This document shows, piece by piece, positions 18,916 through 32,944 of a stretch of 64,000 nucleotides of DNA (within the stretch, counting starts at the first letter, position 1; each line of letters starts with the position of its first letter). Position numbers and translations under genes: made by a program. This DNA comes from Microcoleus sp. AS-A8 (GTDB lineage Bacteria; Cyanobacteriota; Cyanobacteriia; Cyanobacteriales; Coleofasciculaceae), in NCBI GenBank assembly GCA_039962225.1, contig JAMPKV010000009.1, positions 62,001 to 126,000 of the forward strand. The letters are read 5' to 3'. The notes beneath the pieces were generated by a model. That model made no database searches. It was not told where the DNA came from and was given only the letters and a program-made list of their open reading frames with translations.

Positions 18916-19314
18916 TCAAAAGGCACTCTTATAGGCTTGCCAAACTTTACGGACAAAACCACTGAGTTGCTGGTGAGCTTCTGAGGGGTTGGCTTGTTGC
19001 ACCTTGCTGGGGTCATCTAGTTGAACTAACAGGGGAATAACCTCTGTATCCAAAGCAAGCCGAAATAAACTCGCAGGCCAAAGCAAATCAGCTCCCTGGC
19101 GCAAGTCGTATAAATTGAGCTGTTCGGGTGAAAAGGTAGGCTGCGAGTCAGGCTCTATGGGTGAGACAGCCAGCATCAACGGACGTACCCAACAGACTTG
19201 CCGTGATGTGACAACTTGAATAACTTCCGTGTAGAGGCGAGTATTTTCATGCTCTAAACAAACAATCTGGCGAGTCTGGAACTGGTAGGCTGAACCAAGC
19301 GATCCTTGCTTCAC
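18916..19314 (-). CDS. Conserved hypothetical protein, 132 aa
   Basis: No domain is recognised. The protein begins MKQGSLGSAYQFQTRQIVCLE, contains VCWVRPLMLAV and a segment LYDLRQGADLLWPASLFRLA, and ends with a helical FVRKVWQAYKSAF. It has no signal peptide or membrane helix. Small proteins of this kind, with a beta-rich start and a W/R-rich core, occur in cyanobacteria without function assigned; that resemblance is from memory. The gene is divergent from the candidate Yfr1 RNA, whose predicted start is about 125 bp from its own. Confidence 0.65.
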   Translation of the reverse strand: MKQGSLGSAYQFQTRQIVCLEHENTRLYTEVIQVVTSRQVCWVRPLMLAVSPIEPDSQPTFSPEQLNLYDLRQGADLLWPASLFRLALDTEVIPLLVQLDDPSKVQQANPSEAHQQLSGFVRKVWQAYKSAF

Positions 19315-19427
19315 ACAAAATAATTACTGAGGTGGGATTGTAATCTCTATTTTAAGGATTCAGATTCAATAGGACTGCCTTAGTGTTTCAAAAACTGTTA
19401 CGAGTGCCTTTCCCTGGCTGAGTCGGC

Positions 19428-19433
19428 TATAGG
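19428..19433 (+). promoter_or_regulatory. Predicted -10 box of the candidate Yfr1 RNA
   Basis: TATAGG followed 6-7 nt later by the expected first base of the small RNA (about 19440). No convincing -35 hexamer was seen. Confidence 0.4.
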
Positions 19434-19439
19434 ATCAGA

Positions 19440-19502
19440 ATCGAGCTTAAGCTCCTCACACCATACCAAACGCCGTGCAACGCAAGCGCTGCACGGTTTT
19501 TT
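19440..19502 (+). ncRNA. yfr1: Candidate Yfr1 small regulatory RNA
   Basis: About 63 nt with the layout of cyanobacterial Yfr1: a 5' stem-loop (GAGC-TTAA-GCTC), an unpaired block CTCCTCACACC (about 19452-19462), an unstructured A/C-rich linker, and a 3' terminator hairpin with six Ts. The known Yfr1 signature is ACUCCUCACAC; ten of its eleven bases are here in order, with G in place of the first A. In Prochlorococcus, Yfr1 represses outer-membrane porin mRNAs by pairing with that block. No protein gene on this strand precedes the terminator closely, which supports a free-standing RNA. The 5' end is predicted, not measured. Confidence 0.72.
19473..19502 (+). terminator. Rho-independent terminator of the candidate Yfr1 RNA
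   Basis: Perfect 7-bp stem CCGTGCA (19473-19479) with TGCACGG (19490-19496), followed directly by TTTTTT. The inner sequence can pair further. Confidence 0.85.
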
Positions 19503-19702
19503 GTTGACATGCATACTTCTTCGTATCCTCAGGGCTAAATCCGGAGATACGATTGTTTGTGTTGCAAGCAGGAGGCCGCCATGTCAAACGCAGCATTTTT
19601 ACAAGGCATACAGTTGCTTTCTCCACGATTATGGGATTTCTCATCAGTTTTTTGGTTTCCTCACTCAGCTTTTGACTCCAAAAATATTATTAAGCTTTCG
19701 GT

Positions 19703-21891: not shown

Positions 21892-22522
21892 AATGGAGCA
21901 TCAGAAAACTACTTCGATCATAAACGAGACCTAATCGCAATGCAGTTAGTAATAACTGAACTTAAAGACATAGGTAACAATTCTTGACCCTAAGCTAAAA
22001 TAGCATGAGCTTTGTAGGTAAACATAGCTTAATCCTAACTGTTCACGGGATGTGGAAAACCTCTCTCTTACTCTATGAGTGAGGCTTTGAATTTTCCCCC
22101 TTGCCTTGTAGGGAACCAAAGCTGATACAAAGAGGTTGGGGAGTTAGGTTTACGGTTGGTTTTTCCAGATGGTGTGAAAAGTCAGAGACTAATCAGGCGG
22201 TAATCACAATCTTGCGTCATTGAGCAACGTGCGATCGCACAAGTGCTGGGCTTAAAGCAGAGCAAGTTTTTTCTTGGCAGTACCTTGCACGCCTCAATGG
22301 TCAAGGAAATTCGACAAATTGGCAATGGCTTGAGCTAACCCAAGTGTCGCACCGTTATTTCTGTCCTGACTTAGAGTTTACCTTGAAAGCAGGTGTCATA
22401 GGCCAAGAGCGAGGAGAGAGTGCTTTTTATCCTTAAGCCTGCAACTGTTGAAACACGTTAAGAATGTCAACACCTGCGGTAAAGTTTCAAATACCAGATA
22501 TTGTCTTAGCTACAAACAACGT
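21892..22522. other. Gene-poor spacer between divergent genes
   Basis: About 630 bp between the GAF gene and the oxidoreductase gene. It holds an A/T-rich promoter zone (21900-22020) and a startless coding-like stretch (22224-22436). A TTG-initiated extension of the oxidoreductase frame (from 22448) is not conserved-looking. Confidence 0.5.
22224..22436 (+). pseudogene. Startless coding remnant
   Basis: Seventy codons open between a TGA and a TAA with no ATG, GTG or TTG near the beginning. The translation is protein-like rather than random, for example NWQWLELTQVSHRYFCPDLE followed by FTLKAGVIGQERG. It looks like the C-terminal end of a lost gene. I could not name a family. Confidence 0.35.
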
Positions 22523-23524
22523 ATGAAAGCCATCTTAATGACAGCCCCTGGAACACCAGAAGTGCTGCAACTTCAGGAAATACCAGAACCCAAAATTCAA
22601 AATAATACAGAAATCTTAGTGCGTCTGCACGCGGCTGGGGTGAACCCAATTGATACCAAGCTGCGGCAGCGAGGTACCTTTTACCCAGACCAGATGCCAG
22701 CTATCTTAGGCTGTGATGGTGCTGGTGTGGTGGAAGCTGTTGGTTCTGGCGTCCAGCAATTTCGCGTAGGGGATGAAGTTTACTTTTGTGCTGGAGGCTT
22801 GGGAAAATCGAACACGGGCAACTATGCGGAGTTAACTGTTGTAGATGAGCGATTGGTTGCCCCAAAACCCGCTTCCCTGTCTTTTGCTGAAGCGGCGGCT
22901 GCACCTTTAGTATTAATCACCGCTTGGGAAGCCCTTTACGATCGCGCACGCTTGGAAGCTGGTCAAAAAGTGCTGATTCATGCCGGTGCGGGTGGTGTGG
23001 GTCATGTTGCCATCCAACTCGCGAAACTTAAAGGGGCTAAGGTTTGTACGACCGTTAGTTCTCAGGACAAAGCGAGATTAGTGCGTCAGTTGGGTGCGGA
23101 TCATCCCATCCTTTATCAACAAACTGACTTTGTGCAAACGGCGCTAGATTGGACGGGGGGAGAGGGGGTAGACCTTGCCTTTGATACGATAGGCGGTGAA
23201 ACCTTCGCGAAGTCGTTTCCGGCAGTGCGAGTGTATGGCGATGTGGTGACGATTCTTGAACCCGACTCGGCGACCAATTGGAAGACGGCGCGATCGCGTA
23301 ATCTCCGGCTCAGCTTTGAACTTATGCTCACCCCATTGTTACAAGGATTGGTTGCCGCCCAGCAGCATCAAGCTGAGATTCTCAAGCAGTGTGCTAAATG
23401 GATAGATGAAGGTAAACTCAAAATCCACCTGAGTGAGACTTATCCTCTCCATGAGGCGGCAGCGGCTCATAAGGCGATCGAAACGGGGTCAACAACGGGT
23501 AAAATTGCTCTGATTATGGAGTAA
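22523..23524 (+). CDS. Zinc-independent quinone oxidoreductase-like (MDR) enzyme
   Basis: 333 residues from the ATG at 22523, where the family usually starts; the frame extends upstream to 22448 without similarity. The GroES-like fold (GVNPIDTKLRQRG, ILGCDGAGVVEAVG) precedes the Rossmann NAD(P)H-binding motif AGAGGVGHVAIQLAK. The structural and catalytic zinc Cys residues of alcohol dehydrogenases are missing, which places it with NADPH:quinone reductases/zeta-crystallins. Likely role: NADPH-dependent reduction of quinones or enones. Substrate unknown. Confidence 0.9.
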   Translation: MKAILMTAPGTPEVLQLQEIPEPKIQNNTEILVRLHAAGVNPIDTKLRQRGTFYPDQMPAILGCDGAGVVEAVGSGVQQFRVGDEVYFCAGGLGKSNTGNYAELTVVDERLVAPKPASLSFAEAAAAPLVLITAWEALYDRARLEAGQKVLIHAGAGGVGHVAIQLAKLKGAKVCTTVSSQDKARLVRQLGADHPILYQQTDFVQTALDWTGGEGVDLAFDTIGGETFAKSFPAVRVYGDVVTILEPDSATNWKTARSRNLRLSFELMLTPLLQGLVAAQQHQAEILKQCAKWIDEGKLKIHLSETYPLHEAAAAHKAIETGSTTGKIALIME

Positions 23525-23603: not shown

Positions 23604-23840
23604 ATGGCCAGAGGATTGGGTGAGCCGTATCGAGTACTCCTCAAAGCTTCTAGCCTTTGGTCACTTGTGGGATGGAAAGAGCGACACTTAATAAAAGAAC
23701 ACCAAATTGGAGACTCTGTCTTCATAGGACTTAACGTAATTCTCGCTGTTGTGATTGCAGTGGCGATGATTTTCTTATTCACACCGTTTCAGAGGGAAGA
23801 TAAGAAAGCATTTTTGTTTATGGGGGACACCAGGGAGTGA
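23604..23840 (+). CDS. Small single-pass membrane protein, coupled to the next gene
   Basis: 78 residues with a basic N-terminal half and one clear membrane helix (FIGLNVILAVVIAVAMIFLF, about 40-60). No family recognised. Its TGA overlaps the GTG start of the following gene (GTGA at 23837-23840), the arrangement of translationally coupled genes. That is the main support for it being real. It could join the downstream membrane protein in a complex (inference). Confidence 0.45.
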   Translation: MARGLGEPYRVLLKASSLWSLVGWKERHLIKEHQIGDSVFIGLNVILAVVIAVAMIFLFTPFQREDKKAFLFMGDTRE

Positions 23841-26005
23841 AGTCGATTGGCTACTTCCCAAAATTACTAGTGGGATTATTACTGATTTTGCTGCTGCTGA
23901 TGCTACCTGCATGGACAGCAACAGCCGCGACACAGCGATCGCCTTTAACCCTAGAACTCCTGCAAGAACGCCTAAAATCGCCTATTCAAAGCGAAGGCGT
24001 TCGCACCATCGATCTGCGCCAACTGATTATTAACTTGCGCTCGGAAAATGCCGAGTTTCGCGACCAATTTTACCAACTACTACAAACCCAACTCAATCGC
24101 TCCGAAACCCCATTGGGTATCGATTTCAGCCGTTCTCTAATTCAAGGAGAACTGATCGGTAGTAAGTTAGGTTTGCGTACACCCCTACATGGGGAGGCGT
24201 TGTCACCCCTGTTGACACCCGACGAACAACAACAGCTATTGCGTGACTCTCGTCGATTATCTCAGCCGACGATAATTCCCACTGTAACGGTCTTCCGGGG
24301 TGCAATCAAGTTAGTGCAAACGCGAGTGATCGGAACGGTCAATTTCGCCAATACCTTCTTTCTCAACCGGGTAGAAGCCAATGGTGCCGTTTTTACTCAA
24401 GAGTCTGATTGGTCAGAAACACGCTGGACTCGCTCCGTTGACTTTGCCGATGCGGCGTTTGGTCGAGAAGCGAATTTTAGCGGTAGTCTATTTTCTACCA
24501 AAGCAACCTTTGCTCGGGCGCAATTTCGAGGGGTTGCTAATTTCCCAGGCAGCACCTTTGAGGGGAATGCAATTTTTAGTCACGCGCAGTTTGCACAATT
24601 AGCAAATTTTACACGCTCTGTCTTTGGCCGCGCTAACTCCTCCGCCGTTGATGACGCTACCTTCTATGAGCATCCCGGTCAAACGCGAGCTGCTGAAAGC
24701 AACAGCGCTGGGCTACGCCCCGCAACGCTCCCGCGATCGCATTTCCAGGAGTTCGCTGATTTTACCGATACGAACTGGCATGATCGCGCTCTGTTCAGCA
24801 AAAGTCGCTTTCTAGAACCTCTTTTCCTCACAGAGGCAAGCTTTGAGAAATCCGTCGCCTTCCGGGAAACTCAGTTTAATCAACCCATCAATCTACGCGC
24901 GGTTAGTCTTCTGGAACAGGTAGATTTTAGTAATGCCCGATTTCTTAACGATGTTTATCTCAATGTTGCGAGTCTAACTTTTGACTCCGACCAAGCCAAA
25001 ATCATTGGGGATACGGGTCGAATTGGTCGTGTGCTTTCCGTGCCAGTACTGGAAGGAAATGAAGACGTCCTCCGCAATTTAGTCAGGAATTTTCGCTTTT
25101 TGCAACAAATTGCCGATGCCAATCAGCTGGAGTATACAACTCAGCGGCTGCGACTACGGCAACTGGGGCATCGCCTTGTAGTAACAAAGAAAAGGATGGA
25201 GAGTGTTGCTTCTGATTTAGAAAGAGAAGATTTTATCAACACCTCACCCCAAAATTCTTCCCCCCTTCCCCTACTTACTAAAGCTGTGATCCCCCTCTCG
25301 CCTCTTGGCTGGGTATTAGATGCTGTGTCTTGCGTCGGGTTGAGCCTGCTATTACTACTTAGTCGCTATGGCACCAGTTTTTGGCTGGTTTTTGGGGTGG
25401 GAGTGGTGGCGATCGCTTATTTCGGCCTCTTCTTCTGGCTCGTTGATCGTTTCCGCCGTCGCCACCCTCAACCGATTGTCCCCACGGTGTTTGAAACGCC
25501 TTGGATGTTCGGCAGTTACGGAGTATTGACTTTTGCGGGTGTCACGGCAATTTTTCGCACGAGCGATCGCCCCTGGTTAACGCTGGCTTGCTTAGGGGTG
25601 GTTATTTTACCCGTGCCTATGTTGTTGCTGTGGCGACTGTACCAGCAAGGTCGTTACCATGATTTGATGGATGTCAGCTATTTCGTAGAAGATGGGAGTC
25701 TGCGTCAGTTGCGTCTGTTGATTGGACGCCTGCCGGTGATGCCCCGGTTTGAAATGTTTCGCGATCGCTACATGCCCATCCTTTGGGATCGTCGTTGGAA
25801 CTGGCTCAACTACTACGACTTCAGCCTCAACAACTTGCTCAAACTTGGCTTCAACGACATTCGTCTGCGAGACAAACATCTTCCGGGTATCCTTTCCGCT
25901 TTGGTTTGGTATCAATGGAGCCTCGGCATTCTCTACATCGCCTTGCTGTTGTGGACGCTTTCCCGGACTATTCCTGGATTAAACTTACTCATATACCTTA
26001 AGTAA
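23837..26005 (+). CDS. Exported pentapeptide-repeat-like membrane protein
   Basis: 722 residues, start GTG overlapping the previous stop. A signal peptide or anchor comes first (LLVGLLLILLLLMLPAWTATA). A region of about 90-400 follows with degenerate pentapeptides of the F..A.F kind (VDFADAAFGREANFSGSLF, RFLEPLFLTEASF), a beta-helix form common in cyanobacteria. Four or five membrane helices come after that (about 480-590 and 695-720), with cytoplasmic-looking loops between. The layout suggests a periplasmic or lumenal beta-helix held in the membrane. Function unknown. Codon use matches the neighbourhood. Confidence 0.8.
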   Translation: MKSIGYFPKLLVGLLLILLLLMLPAWTATAATQRSPLTLELLQERLKSPIQSEGVRTIDLRQLIINLRSENAEFRDQFYQLLQTQLNRSETPLGIDFSRSLIQGELIGSKLGLRTPLHGEALSPLLTPDEQQQLLRDSRRLSQPTIIPTVTVFRGAIKLVQTRVIGTVNFANTFFLNRVEANGAVFTQESDWSETRWTRSVDFADAAFGREANFSGSLFSTKATFARAQFRGVANFPGSTFEGNAIFSHAQFAQLANFTRSVFGRANSSAVDDATFYEHPGQTRAAESNSAGLRPATLPRSHFQEFADFTDTNWHDRALFSKSRFLEPLFLTEASFEKSVAFRETQFNQPINLRAVSLLEQVDFSNARFLNDVYLNVASLTFDSDQAKIIGDTGRIGRVLSVPVLEGNEDVLRNLVRNFRFLQQIADANQLEYTTQRLRLRQLGHRLVVTKKRMESVASDLEREDFINTSPQNSSPLPLLTKAVIPLSPLGWVLDAVSCVGLSLLLLLSRYGTSFWLVFGVGVVAIAYFGLFFWLVDRFRRRHPQPIVPTVFETPWMFGSYGVLTFAGVTAIFRTSDRPWLTLACLGVVILPVPMLLLWRLYQQGRYHDLMDVSYFVEDGSLRQLRLLIGRLPVMPRFEMFRDRYMPILWDRRWNWLNYYDFSLNNLLKLGFNDIRLRDKHLPGILSALVWYQWSLGILYIALLLWTLSRTIPGLNLLIYLK

Positions 26006-31108: not shown

Positions 31109-32944
31109 TTGTATAAGGAGCTGAATGAAGCTTCCATCGCGATCGCCCAGGAGGCACAATCCTTATCATCTGTAGCCTCCACCCTCCCCAGTAGTCCCCC
31201 TCTACAGGCAGAATCTGCCCCGTCAGCGAAGTCTCTTGCCCAACTCAGTAGCGCTCAACCCACCAATGCAGACGTTGCAAGAGAACCAGCACAGAGCAAT
31301 CCTGAGCAGATGGAGCAAGTGACTCATGTTTCCCAACTCAGTGGTGAACCACTCACTGACTCAATGGAACAAGTAACCAACGTTTCCCAGTTGAGTGACG
31401 TTCGACCCACAGATTGGGCTTATGAAGCGTTGCGATCGCTCGTTGAGCGTTATGGTTGTATTGCGGGCTATCCAGACGGTACCTTCCGAGGAAACCGTGC
31501 CATGACCCGCTATGAATTTGCCGCAGGTTTGAATGCCTGTTTGCAACAAATTGAGAAATTAATGGCTGGTAATGGCTCTGAATCGGCTACCAAGGAAGAT
31601 TTAGCCGCATTACAGCGATTAGTGGAGGAATTTCGTCCCGAACTCACGACTCTAGGGTCACGAATCGATAAATTAGACGGTCGAGTCGCCTTTCTCGAAG
31701 ATCATCAATTCTCCACCACAACCAAATTAAGTGGTCAGGCTATTATCTCCGCCATCGGTGCTAGCGGGGGTGCGCCGGATGGCAAGGACGCTAACATCAT
31801 CCTAACCAATCGGGTGCGACTCAACTTAGTCACCAGTTTTACTGGAAAAGATACCCTAATCACAGGCTTGCAAGCTTATAACTTCGAGGGGGGTGTCTTT
31901 GGGGGAAACAGCCTTCAAAATACTTTGTTCCCAGGCTCAACCCTCACCTCCGGAATGAGTAAACTCAGCTTTGAACCCCAATTTCCGGGATTCAATCCCA
32001 AGGACTTATCAACGGTCGGAACCAATAGCGTTAATTTATACAAGCTACTTTACATCTTCCCCCTTGCCAACAAATTTACGGTGTTTGCTGGGACGGCAGC
32101 TGAAGTTTCCGATGCCTTTCCCGCCATTACTCCCTTTGCCGATGATGGACAAGAGGCCATTTCCCGGTTCGCGGGTTATAACCCCGTGGTACGGGTATCG
32201 GGTGGGACTTCTGGAACCGGTTTAGCATCGGCGGCTGGCTTTATCTGGAGCATTTCTGACAAGCTCGACCTCAGAGCCTTGTACGGTAGCGTCAATGCTA
32301 ACCTGCCCGGTGAGGCTTCGGATGTTCTGCCAGGGGTTTCGGGTACACCTTTGGGAGCGGGCGTGTTTAGTGGTAGTAGTGTTGTTGCGACGCAACTGAC
32401 AATTAAACCCACCAACTCCATTGACATTGGTTTGAACTATGCCAACAGTTACCACGAAATCAACATCTTGGGCACTGGATTAGCTCAATCGGATGCTAAC
32501 GCTTTGGGCGGAGTCGCTCTCGGCACTCCCGTAAACCTCAACTCAGTTGGTGCAACGCTGACTTGGCGGTTAACACCGAAGGTGGCGTTAAGTACCTATG
32601 GAGCCTACATCTTTGCGAATGATTCAACAGGTGATGTTGATGCCTCGTCTAACTTCAGCAGTTGGATGGTAGGTTTGCACTTTAAGGACTTGTTCAAAGA
32701 GGGGAATGCAGCCGGACTCATTTTTGGACAGCCACTTTACCGGGTAGATGCAGGTGGGGATGCTGTGCTGGCAGCGGCTGGTGTCAACAGAGCCACGCCC
32801 TACCACTTAGAGGCTTATTATCGCTTTCAGGTGAGTAAGAATATCAGCATTACACCGGGTGCTTTTGTGCTGTTCAATCCGGAAGGAAATAGCAACAATG
32901 ACACCACCGGGGTGGGTGTTATTCGCACTACATCTACGTTCTAA
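31109..32944 (+). CDS. SLH/OprB-type outer-membrane porin, signal peptide missing
   Basis: The 611-residue frame opens at a TTG. A Ser/Pro/Gln-rich start is followed by an SLH domain at about 97-150 (DVRPTDWAYEALRSLVERY, YPDGTFRGNRAMTRYEFAAG), a short coiled coil (about 165-195) and a long beta-barrel region ending with aromatic-rich strands (FQVSKNISITPGAFVLF). This is the cyanobacterial Som/iron-uptake porin family. Members start with a hydrophobic signal peptide; here none exists in this frame, which begins after a TAG at 31067, and only an AIAQ-like cleavage relic remains. A Shine-Dalgarno AAGGAG with ATG at 31125 lies in another frame and gives 16 codons. The gene may be 5'-truncated or frameshifted. 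Confidence 0.82.
   Translation: MYKELNEASIAIAQEAQSLSSVASTLPSSPPLQAESAPSAKSLAQLSSAQPTNADVAREPAQSNPEQMEQVTHVSQLSGEPLTDSMEQVTNVSQLSDVRPTDWAYEALRSLVERYGCIAGYPDGTFRGNRAMTRYEFAAGLNACLQQIEKLMAGNGSESATKEDLAALQRLVEEFRPELTTLGSRIDKLDGRVAFLEDHQFSTTTKLSGQAIISAIGASGGAPDGKDANIILTNRVRLNLVTSFTGKDTLITGLQAYNFEGGVFGGNSLQNTLFPGSTLTSGMSKLSFEPQFPGFNPKDLSTVGTNSVNLYKLLYIFPLANKFTVFAGTAAEVSDAFPAITPFADDGQEAISRFAGYNPVVRVSGGTSGTGLASAAGFIWSISDKLDLRALYGSVNANLPGEASDVLPGVSGTPLGAGVFSGSSVVATQLTIKPTNSIDIGLNYANSYHEINILGTGLAQSDANALGGVALGTPVNLNSVGATLTWRLTPKVALSTYGAYIFANDSTGDVDASSNFSSWMVGLHFKDLFKEGNAAGLIFGQPLYRVDAGGDAVLAAAGVNRATPYHLEAYYRFQVSKNISITPGAFVLFNPEGNSNNDTTGVGVIRTTSTF

Follow-up and report, generated by a model that had tools for sequence, protein, structure and literature searches.

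Within the window, by which we mean the whole stretch of 64,000 nucleotides of Microcoleus sp. AS-A8 DNA that was analysed, positions 19428-19502 hold a compact element on the plus strand that we read as a probable small RNA gene. It contains the pairing core CTCCTCACACC (equivalent to CUCCUCACACC) at 19452-19462, preceded by G19451; a 4-bp 5' stem between GAGC (19443-19446) and GCTC (19451-19454), which overlaps the start of the core and is seen in the genus of the window; and an intrinsic terminator at 19473-19502, recognized from the sequence, from folding and from a helix followed over 10 homologues, which consists of a hairpin (19473-19496) and T6 (19497-19502). Homologue alignments point to TAGGAT at 19430-19435 as the probable -10 box, with TATGAT or TATCAT in many relatives, and a transcript start near 19440-19442 is plausible by homology from this box. 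The gene would then span 19442-19502, specify an RNA of about 60 nt, and belong to the family matched by our covariance model R1 (the 'class B' Yfr1-motif family). Further upstream, at 19385-19404 (positions 81385-81404 of contig C9 of the window genome, G000), lies the direct repeat GTTTCAAAAACTGTTACGAG, a putative regulator-binding site of the small RNA promoter.

The first-pass annotation had described a Yfr1-type core between a 5' stem and a T6 terminator, in which 10 of the 11 bases of ACUCCUCACAC are kept with G for the first A, and had placed it away from protein genes, with no nearby same-strand gene upstream. This layout was found as described: the bases in question are seen as GCUCCUCACAC, and the closest ORF of 100 aa or more on the upstream side, at 18916-19314, is on the minus strand. 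Folding gave minimum free energies of -19.6 and -20.3 kcal/mol, with z-scores of -2.60 and -3.05 relative to dinucleotide shuffles, the second value of each pair referring to 19440-19505. A simple terminator scan reported the 19473-19496 hairpin on the minus strand only. Just downstream, at 19581-19700, there is a remnant of the 431-aa protein that follows the small RNA in the other genome of the genus (locus L005). Two pieces of it match different parts of that gene, one of 28 aa (54% identity) near the start and one of 30 aa (77%) some 1.2 kb beyond, and the rest of the gene is missing from the window beside the remnant.

The exact 11-mer core occurs only once in the window. When one mismatch was allowed, two matches were obtained compared to 0.97 expected, a number equalled in 25 of 100 shuffles, and the core motif alone is weak evidence that is unremarkable against chance. 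The element stands above chance because it is conserved, with 92% identity within the genus (19380-19520, query positions 3-141, in the other genome), one block in common with other families, and matches in 180 of 217 genomes of the Nostocaceae.

These last matches were obtained with R1, which was built from ten window-type loci, using the RNA alone and leaving out the promoter; the window sequence was one of the rows, and the loci had been selected by core, among other criteria. The window copy, as a training row, scored 74.1 bits (E 1.3e-13). At E<=0.01, R1 matched 180 of 217 genomes and 53 of 56 genera of family f33, where up to eight of the 180 genomes may be training loci and several dozen loci were read individually; with stricter filters, the remaining 37 genomes gave no R1 match at this threshold. 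We take f33 to be the Nostocaceae because at 4 of 30 loci the identity to named Nostoc (two), Brasilonema and Calothrix sequences was 100% over 2-3 kb. Within the window's own family, matches were found in 15 of 20 genomes and 10 of 12 genera, with cores that had drifted in most. Across the phylum, 33 of 292 genomes matched at E<=0.001, of which six lie outside f33 and f1 (four in f47 and two in f2). The four of these outside matches that were read look false by eye and were set aside: L269 and L271 have no core, and L268 and L270 have no clear terminator hairpin. At L013, the same place as L268, the hairpin reaches -3.3 kcal/mol.

Pattern searches brought up two kinds of locus, the window type and a second type that we call class A. 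Of 291 genomes in the order, 61 contain the pattern GCTCCTCACACCA, compared to 9 for the backwards pattern, and the 61 include both small RNA families as well as chance matches. Thirty loci were fetched, and 29 of them were inspected for a terminator-like hairpin with a folding energy of at most -14 kcal/mol, which is present in 15 and absent from 14 (L037 and L054-L066); the thirtieth, L050, is the copy of genome G001 and was left out of this count. In named genomes, GCTCCTCACACC followed by T5 was found in at least 116 stretches; among the 80 listed, 25 are cyanobacterial by title, and by eye 7 of these are of the window type (three Nostoc, one Brasilonema, two Calothrix and one Nostocaceae MAG), 12 are class A and 6 are neither. 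The class A stretches listed have a 5' stem of GCAAAC and GTTTGC, with variants, and one is cut off by the end of its contig. Class A-like loci were seen in many cyanobacteria, and the window genome itself has one, L051 (G000:C5:319497-319580, minus strand), a third small RNA with the Yfr1 motif that consists of a 5' stem, a GCTCCTCACACC core and a terminator. The class A model, R2, scored L051 at 60.3 bits (a training row) and the window copy at 22.7 bits (E 0.17).

The element had initially been named as a candidate Yfr1, to be checked with the corresponding Rfam model. Of this proposal, the small RNA gene with a Yfr1 core is upheld by the conservation, whereas the name Yfr1 is contradicted both by the covariance model and by a separate Yfr1 locus. 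RF01116 scored the element at 9.5 bits (E 8.7), compared to its gathering score of 38, and no Rfam family reached its gathering score anywhere in the window. The genuine Yfr1 of this genome lies on another contig (G000:C4:402560-402622), where RF01116 gives 62.9 bits, above gathering, and R1 only 24.0 bits. Weak matches to STnc310, Leu_leader and other Rfam families on the stretch were all below gathering and were taken as chance; that to STnc310 (E 0.005 and 0.018) lies on the other strand, aligned to the hairpin and its flanks.

Yfr1 has been defined, in the accessible part of the source, by a 5' stem of 6-10 bp, an unpaired region of 16-20 nt containing ACUCCUCACAC, and a terminator (PMC2190773). 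The window RNA resembles it in the CUCCUCACACC core, the short size and the Rho-independent terminator, and probably in its pairing logic. In contrast to Yfr1, its 5' stem has only 4 bp and overlaps the core, the full undecamer is replaced by GCUCCUCACAC, and it has its own locus, promoter, 5' region and linker in a genome where genuine Yfr1 coexists. It could nevertheless be argued that the element is Yfr1 itself or a recent Yfr1 duplicate, given that it keeps 10 of 11 bases of the motif, a 5' stem and a terminator, and that 8 of 50 family loci have the A before the core that restores the full undecamer. With the scores of the two models at the two loci and the presence of both kinds in one genome set against this, we find it hardly credible, and the identification as Yfr1 was rejected.

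We then consider the region upstream of the core across the family. The direct repeat GTTACCAAAAnTGTTACGAG (GTTACCAAAAyTGTTAC; family consensus GTTACCAAAAyTGTTACGAG) was found with up to 3 substitutions upstream of the core in 46 of 51 loci, including the window. In comparison, it turned up in 5 of at most 255 control segments taken further upstream, and in 39 of 1020 shuffles. Among the 46 matches, those at L184, L249 and L256 are poor. Most loci that were read have the same order of repeat, -10 box, AGTTAA, core near the 5' end and terminator, and the majority sequence around the start in the 46 loci is TATGATGATATTTAGTTAAG-CTCCTCACACCACAC. When these 46 loci were anchored on the core, conservation amounted to 0.08-0.15 bit per position beyond -80, and in ten-base bins to 0.7-1.2 bits over the repeat, 1.1 over the -10 box and 1.9 over the core. 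The set leaves out L262, L263, L264, L266 and L267, which have no repeat and all have the GTCTCC core, and L265 was dropped because no family member could be read there.

Within the window genome, the repeat itself is not enriched: at up to 2 mismatches there were 21 matches compared to 44 for the backwards control, and therefore no regulon is claimed. A literature search for known regulators of a GTTAC direct-repeat site turned up no useful candidate. Two further occurrences were seen, at L308 (G000:C26:10018-10037, minus strand), where the repeat and TAGTTAAG are present without core or terminator and which is possibly a decayed copy, and at L292 (G000:C4:303247, minus strand), where by eye the repeat lies upstream of an apparent protein start.

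The two helices of the RNA differ in their conservation. Over 10 homologues, 96.6% of the cells of the terminator helix are paired and two pairs are changed on both sides, whereas in the 5' stem 22.5% of cells are paired, the stem being formed by two of the ten rows, with a third row having one of the four pairs. For both helices taken together, the covariation score was reached by 4 of 500 shuffles and the number of both-sided pair changes by 49 of 500. A 4-bp 5' stem of the window type is possible in 4 of 46 loci. Therefore, of the earlier suggestion that the G before the core pairs into a 5' stem, the stem does exist in the window but it is not a conserved property of the family. The base preceding the core was G in 34, A in 8, T (the GTCTCC type) in 6 and another base in 2 of 50 loci, and so the G in place of A is ordinary family variation.

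The family is often present in more than one copy. In 11 of the 30 best R1 loci of f33, a second unit was found 149-593 bp upstream, core to core, each unit having its own core and T-run, and the core of the upstream tandem units that were read is GTCTCCTCACACC. The window genome has a paralogue at L220 (G000:C11:84512-84570, minus strand), with an R1 score of 39.4 bits, the core CTCCTCATGCC, an exact GTTACCAAAACCGTTACCAG repeat and the same promoter. Among the loci read in the window's own family, CTCCTCACACC is kept only in the window and G001, and the others have CTCCTCACACT, (A/C/T)TCCTCATGC or CTCCTTAGACC; counted by genus, the AUGC type is found in nine, the ACAC type in three (two with CACACT) and CTCCTTAGACC in one. 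The CTCCTCACACC core is therefore the minority form in its own family, although it is the common form in the Nostocaceae loci read.

Because of this distribution, the window copy might be thought a fossil or poorly expressed copy in its genus, with the C11 paralogue (core CUCCUCAUGCC) as the working one. The first repeat of the window has GTTTC for GTTAC, its -10 box (TAGGAT) is weaker, and the nine-to-three ratio of AUGC to ACAC genera points in the same direction. Against this stand the 92% identity to the second genome of the genus, a core that is unchanged between the two genomes, and a terminator stem that differs between them by one both-sided and one pair-restoring change. We regard a fossil as unlikely. 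More tentatively, with the balance somewhat against it, this could be an undescribed separate family in which the GTTAC promoter type drives copies with the drifted cores GCUCCUCACACC, ACUCCUCACACC, GUCUCCUCACACC, CUCCUCAUGCC and CUCCUUAGACC; it might then act as a counterpart of Yfr1 that is regulated and duplicates, competing for Yfr2 and acquiring new targets or partners as its cores mutate.

The genes around the element were compared in 44 loci, with an ORF on the downstream side in 42 and on the upstream side in 43. The first downstream genes lie on both strands and make up 28 clusters, of which the largest, found in 7 of the 42 loci, is a same-strand zinc-binding dehydrogenase (quinone-oxidoreductase-like). 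The window has a homologue at 22448-23524, a zinc-binding dehydrogenase by Pfam that is 72-75% identical to those of four relatives, and behind it, in the same order as in relatives, a pentapeptide-repeat gene (23837-26005) that is 44-51% identical. Other genes lie between the small RNA and this dehydrogenase in the window, where an alpha/beta hydrolase gene about 250 bp away follows the small RNA.

The dehydrogenase gives some weight to a cis-acting leader or attenuator of the downstream gene, or to an sRNA-mRNA 'actuaton', since it is the next gene, in the same orientation, in 7 of 42 loci and has its homologue at 22448 in the window, and there is a precedent in SyR5, a Yfr1-motif small RNA (PMC6778093) that appears as an actuaton with sll0737 in a table of PMC5386190, as far as the available portions of these sources go. 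Such a role is opposed by the 28 clusters on both strands in 42 loci, by the terminator, and by the alpha/beta hydrolase that takes the place of the dehydrogenase in the window. As a general role it was rejected on the number of downstream clusters, and for the window we consider it improbable. The downstream genes vary freely, and therefore the window RNA probably acts in trans; partial synteny together with an otherwise free downstream context would fit an independent, trans-acting gene.

The upstream genes, in 43 loci, fall into 14 clusters, and in 26 of the 43 a radical-SAM DUF3641 gene (by Pfam of one of them) is present on the plus strand. This frequent neighbour is what would be expected if the element were a mere 3' UTR or terminator of the upstream gene, a reading that we hold to be very improbable: the promoter repeat and -10 box are conserved between the DUF3641 gene and the small RNA, two units each with core and T-run are present in 11 of 30 loci, and the window has no close upstream plus-strand ORF of at least 100 aa. 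In one relative (L289:907-3890), the tandem small RNAs come after a methyltransferase gene, a gene for a PHO4-type phosphate transporter and a radical-SAM DUF3641 gene, a setting that presumably recalls arsenic/phosphate metabolism.

An independent RNA with this core might pair with Yfr2. Two Yfr2-type RNAs of the window genome score above the cut-off of RF01701 (Cyano-1), which we take to be Yfr2, and a third scores below it (35.8 compared to 41 bits). The latter, L247 (G000:C7:242399-242466, minus strand), has GUGUGAGGAGC flanked by GGUU and AACC, in what by eye is a hairpin loop. Yfr2 is a different RNA from that of the window and a predicted partner that has the complementary motif GUGUGAGGAG(C). 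Pairing was calculated in windows with opening energies and compared to 100 dinucleotide shuffles. For the Yfr2-like RNA at C7:242466, an 11-bp pairing of GCUCCUCACAC with GUGUGAGGAGC was predicted at -13.4 kcal/mol, with 0 of 100 shuffles as good; the values for the window RNA with the Yfr2-type RNAs at C5:124589 and C5:27107 were -10.0 kcal/mol (1 of 100) and -9.9 kcal/mol (7 of 100), respectively. Genuine Yfr1 gave -14.4, -13.1 and -10.4 kcal/mol with these three RNAs in the same order, with 0, 0 and 9 of 100 shuffles as good. The predicted pairing of the window RNA is thus somewhat weaker than that of Yfr1 with all three Yfr2-type RNAs, in part because the first bases of the core are occupied by the extra 4-bp 5' stem of the genus. 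With one Yfr2-like RNA of this genome, an eleventh pair is predicted through the G that precedes the core, a pair that the A of Yfr1 cannot form. Full-length duplex prediction without accessibility gave no discrimination among 12 RNA pairs.

Perfect complements of the core, GTGTGAGGAG, were found 14 times in the genome compared to 6 for the backwards control; three of the 14 are the antisense of small RNA genes, two are Yfr2 loci, and nine are left. A perfect 12-base complement of GCUCCUCACACC, GGTGTGAGGAGC, was observed at L277 (G000:C6:368660, minus strand), directly before the GTG of a 499-aa ORF whose match to PMT glycosyltransferases, at 19.4 bits, is below the Pfam cut-off of 22.7. The mRNA of this ORF is a possible target of the window RNA by sequence complementarity, a match that could be due to chance.

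A different target had been put forward at the outset, the porin mRNA at 31109, on the ground that AAGGAGCT precedes its frame. This did not hold up: the accessibility-corrected pairing was -1.0 kcal/mol, rank 20 of 46 ORF starts in the window, and AAGGAGCT (31115-31122) falls within the OprB ORF when this is called from the TTG at 31109, and this candidate was rejected. The ORF, OprB/SLH porin at 31109-32944, has a TTG start as called and no obvious signal peptide by eye, and within it an ATG in another frame lies at 31125, behind the AAGGAG at 31115.

The work on Nostoc Yfr1, as far as the text is available, reports that 11 selected predicted targets were regulated via the conserved motif, 10 of them downwards, that most predicted sites were at translation initiation regions, and that Yfr1 binds Yfr2 in EMSA (PMC6974561). 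In Prochlorococcus, Yfr1 and Yfr10, which have a common motif, both bind Yfr2; their pairing with ppa, a target of both, is inhibited by Yfr2 (PMC6778093, part of the text). Further small RNAs with the Yfr1 motif are described in other cyanobacteria in the same portion of that paper, including Nostoc PCC 7120 TSS 2515196r and 3750139f, which may be members of class A and of the window family. The Yfr10-like small RNAs, namely Syr5, these two Nostoc transcripts and Yfr104, are in what was available of PMC6778093 the closest known kind, since they carry a Yfr1 motif beside Yfr1 itself. In this loose sense the window RNA is comparable, as an intergenic element with a Yfr1 core (10 of 11 bases) and a terminator in a genome that also has genuine Yfr1. 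It differs from Yfr10 proper (RF02362), in which the motif is in a loop atop a stem, in having the motif in a single-stranded 5' region and in belonging to a family that is well conserved, promoter included. RF02362 remained below its gathering score of 43 bits in the window, where it was not among the matches at E<=10, and it gave 15.8 bits for the relative L184. The portions of open main text on Yfr1, Syr5, Yfr10, Yfr2, both TSS and CUCCUCAC contain no description of this family, its promoter or its tandem copies.

Taken together, what we read from the sequences is a conserved promoter block, a core, a terminator, variable downstream genes, and coexisting genuine Yfr1 and Yfr2-type RNAs, and the window RNA is a Yfr1-motif small RNA with its own architecture and promoter, in a family that has no Rfam model. 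We consider it likely, on comparative grounds, that 19442-19502 on the plus strand encodes an independently transcribed, trans-acting small RNA of about 60 nt from a multi-copy family of the Nostocaceae and the window's own family, which uses the Yfr1 core without the architecture, promoter or locus of Yfr1. The GTTAC direct-repeat promoter would drive its transcription, probably via a DNA-binding regulator; the exposed CUCCUCACACC would pair with purine-rich Shine-Dalgarno regions of mRNAs and block translation; and the same core would pair with the GUGUGAGGAG of Yfr2-type RNAs, so that the window RNA, Yfr1 and the third motif-bearing small RNA might compete for, or be buffered by, the same Yfr2 pool.

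Yfr1 has been treated, in the parts of the literature available, as a single RNA that is constantly high in Prochlorococcus and whose activity is set by Yfr2. The window genome has Yfr1, the window RNA, the AUGCC paralogue and the class A RNA, with the same or a drifted core, and if our interpretation is true, these bacteria may apply several RNA brakes in parallel to targets of one kind. Furthermore, if filamentous cyanobacteria carry such additional RNAs, each with its own promoter, then target lists based on Yfr1 only and models of Yfr2 titration would be incomplete there. An Rfam model of the family could be made, and the natural core variants on a shared scaffold would make target switching by core mutation directly testable.
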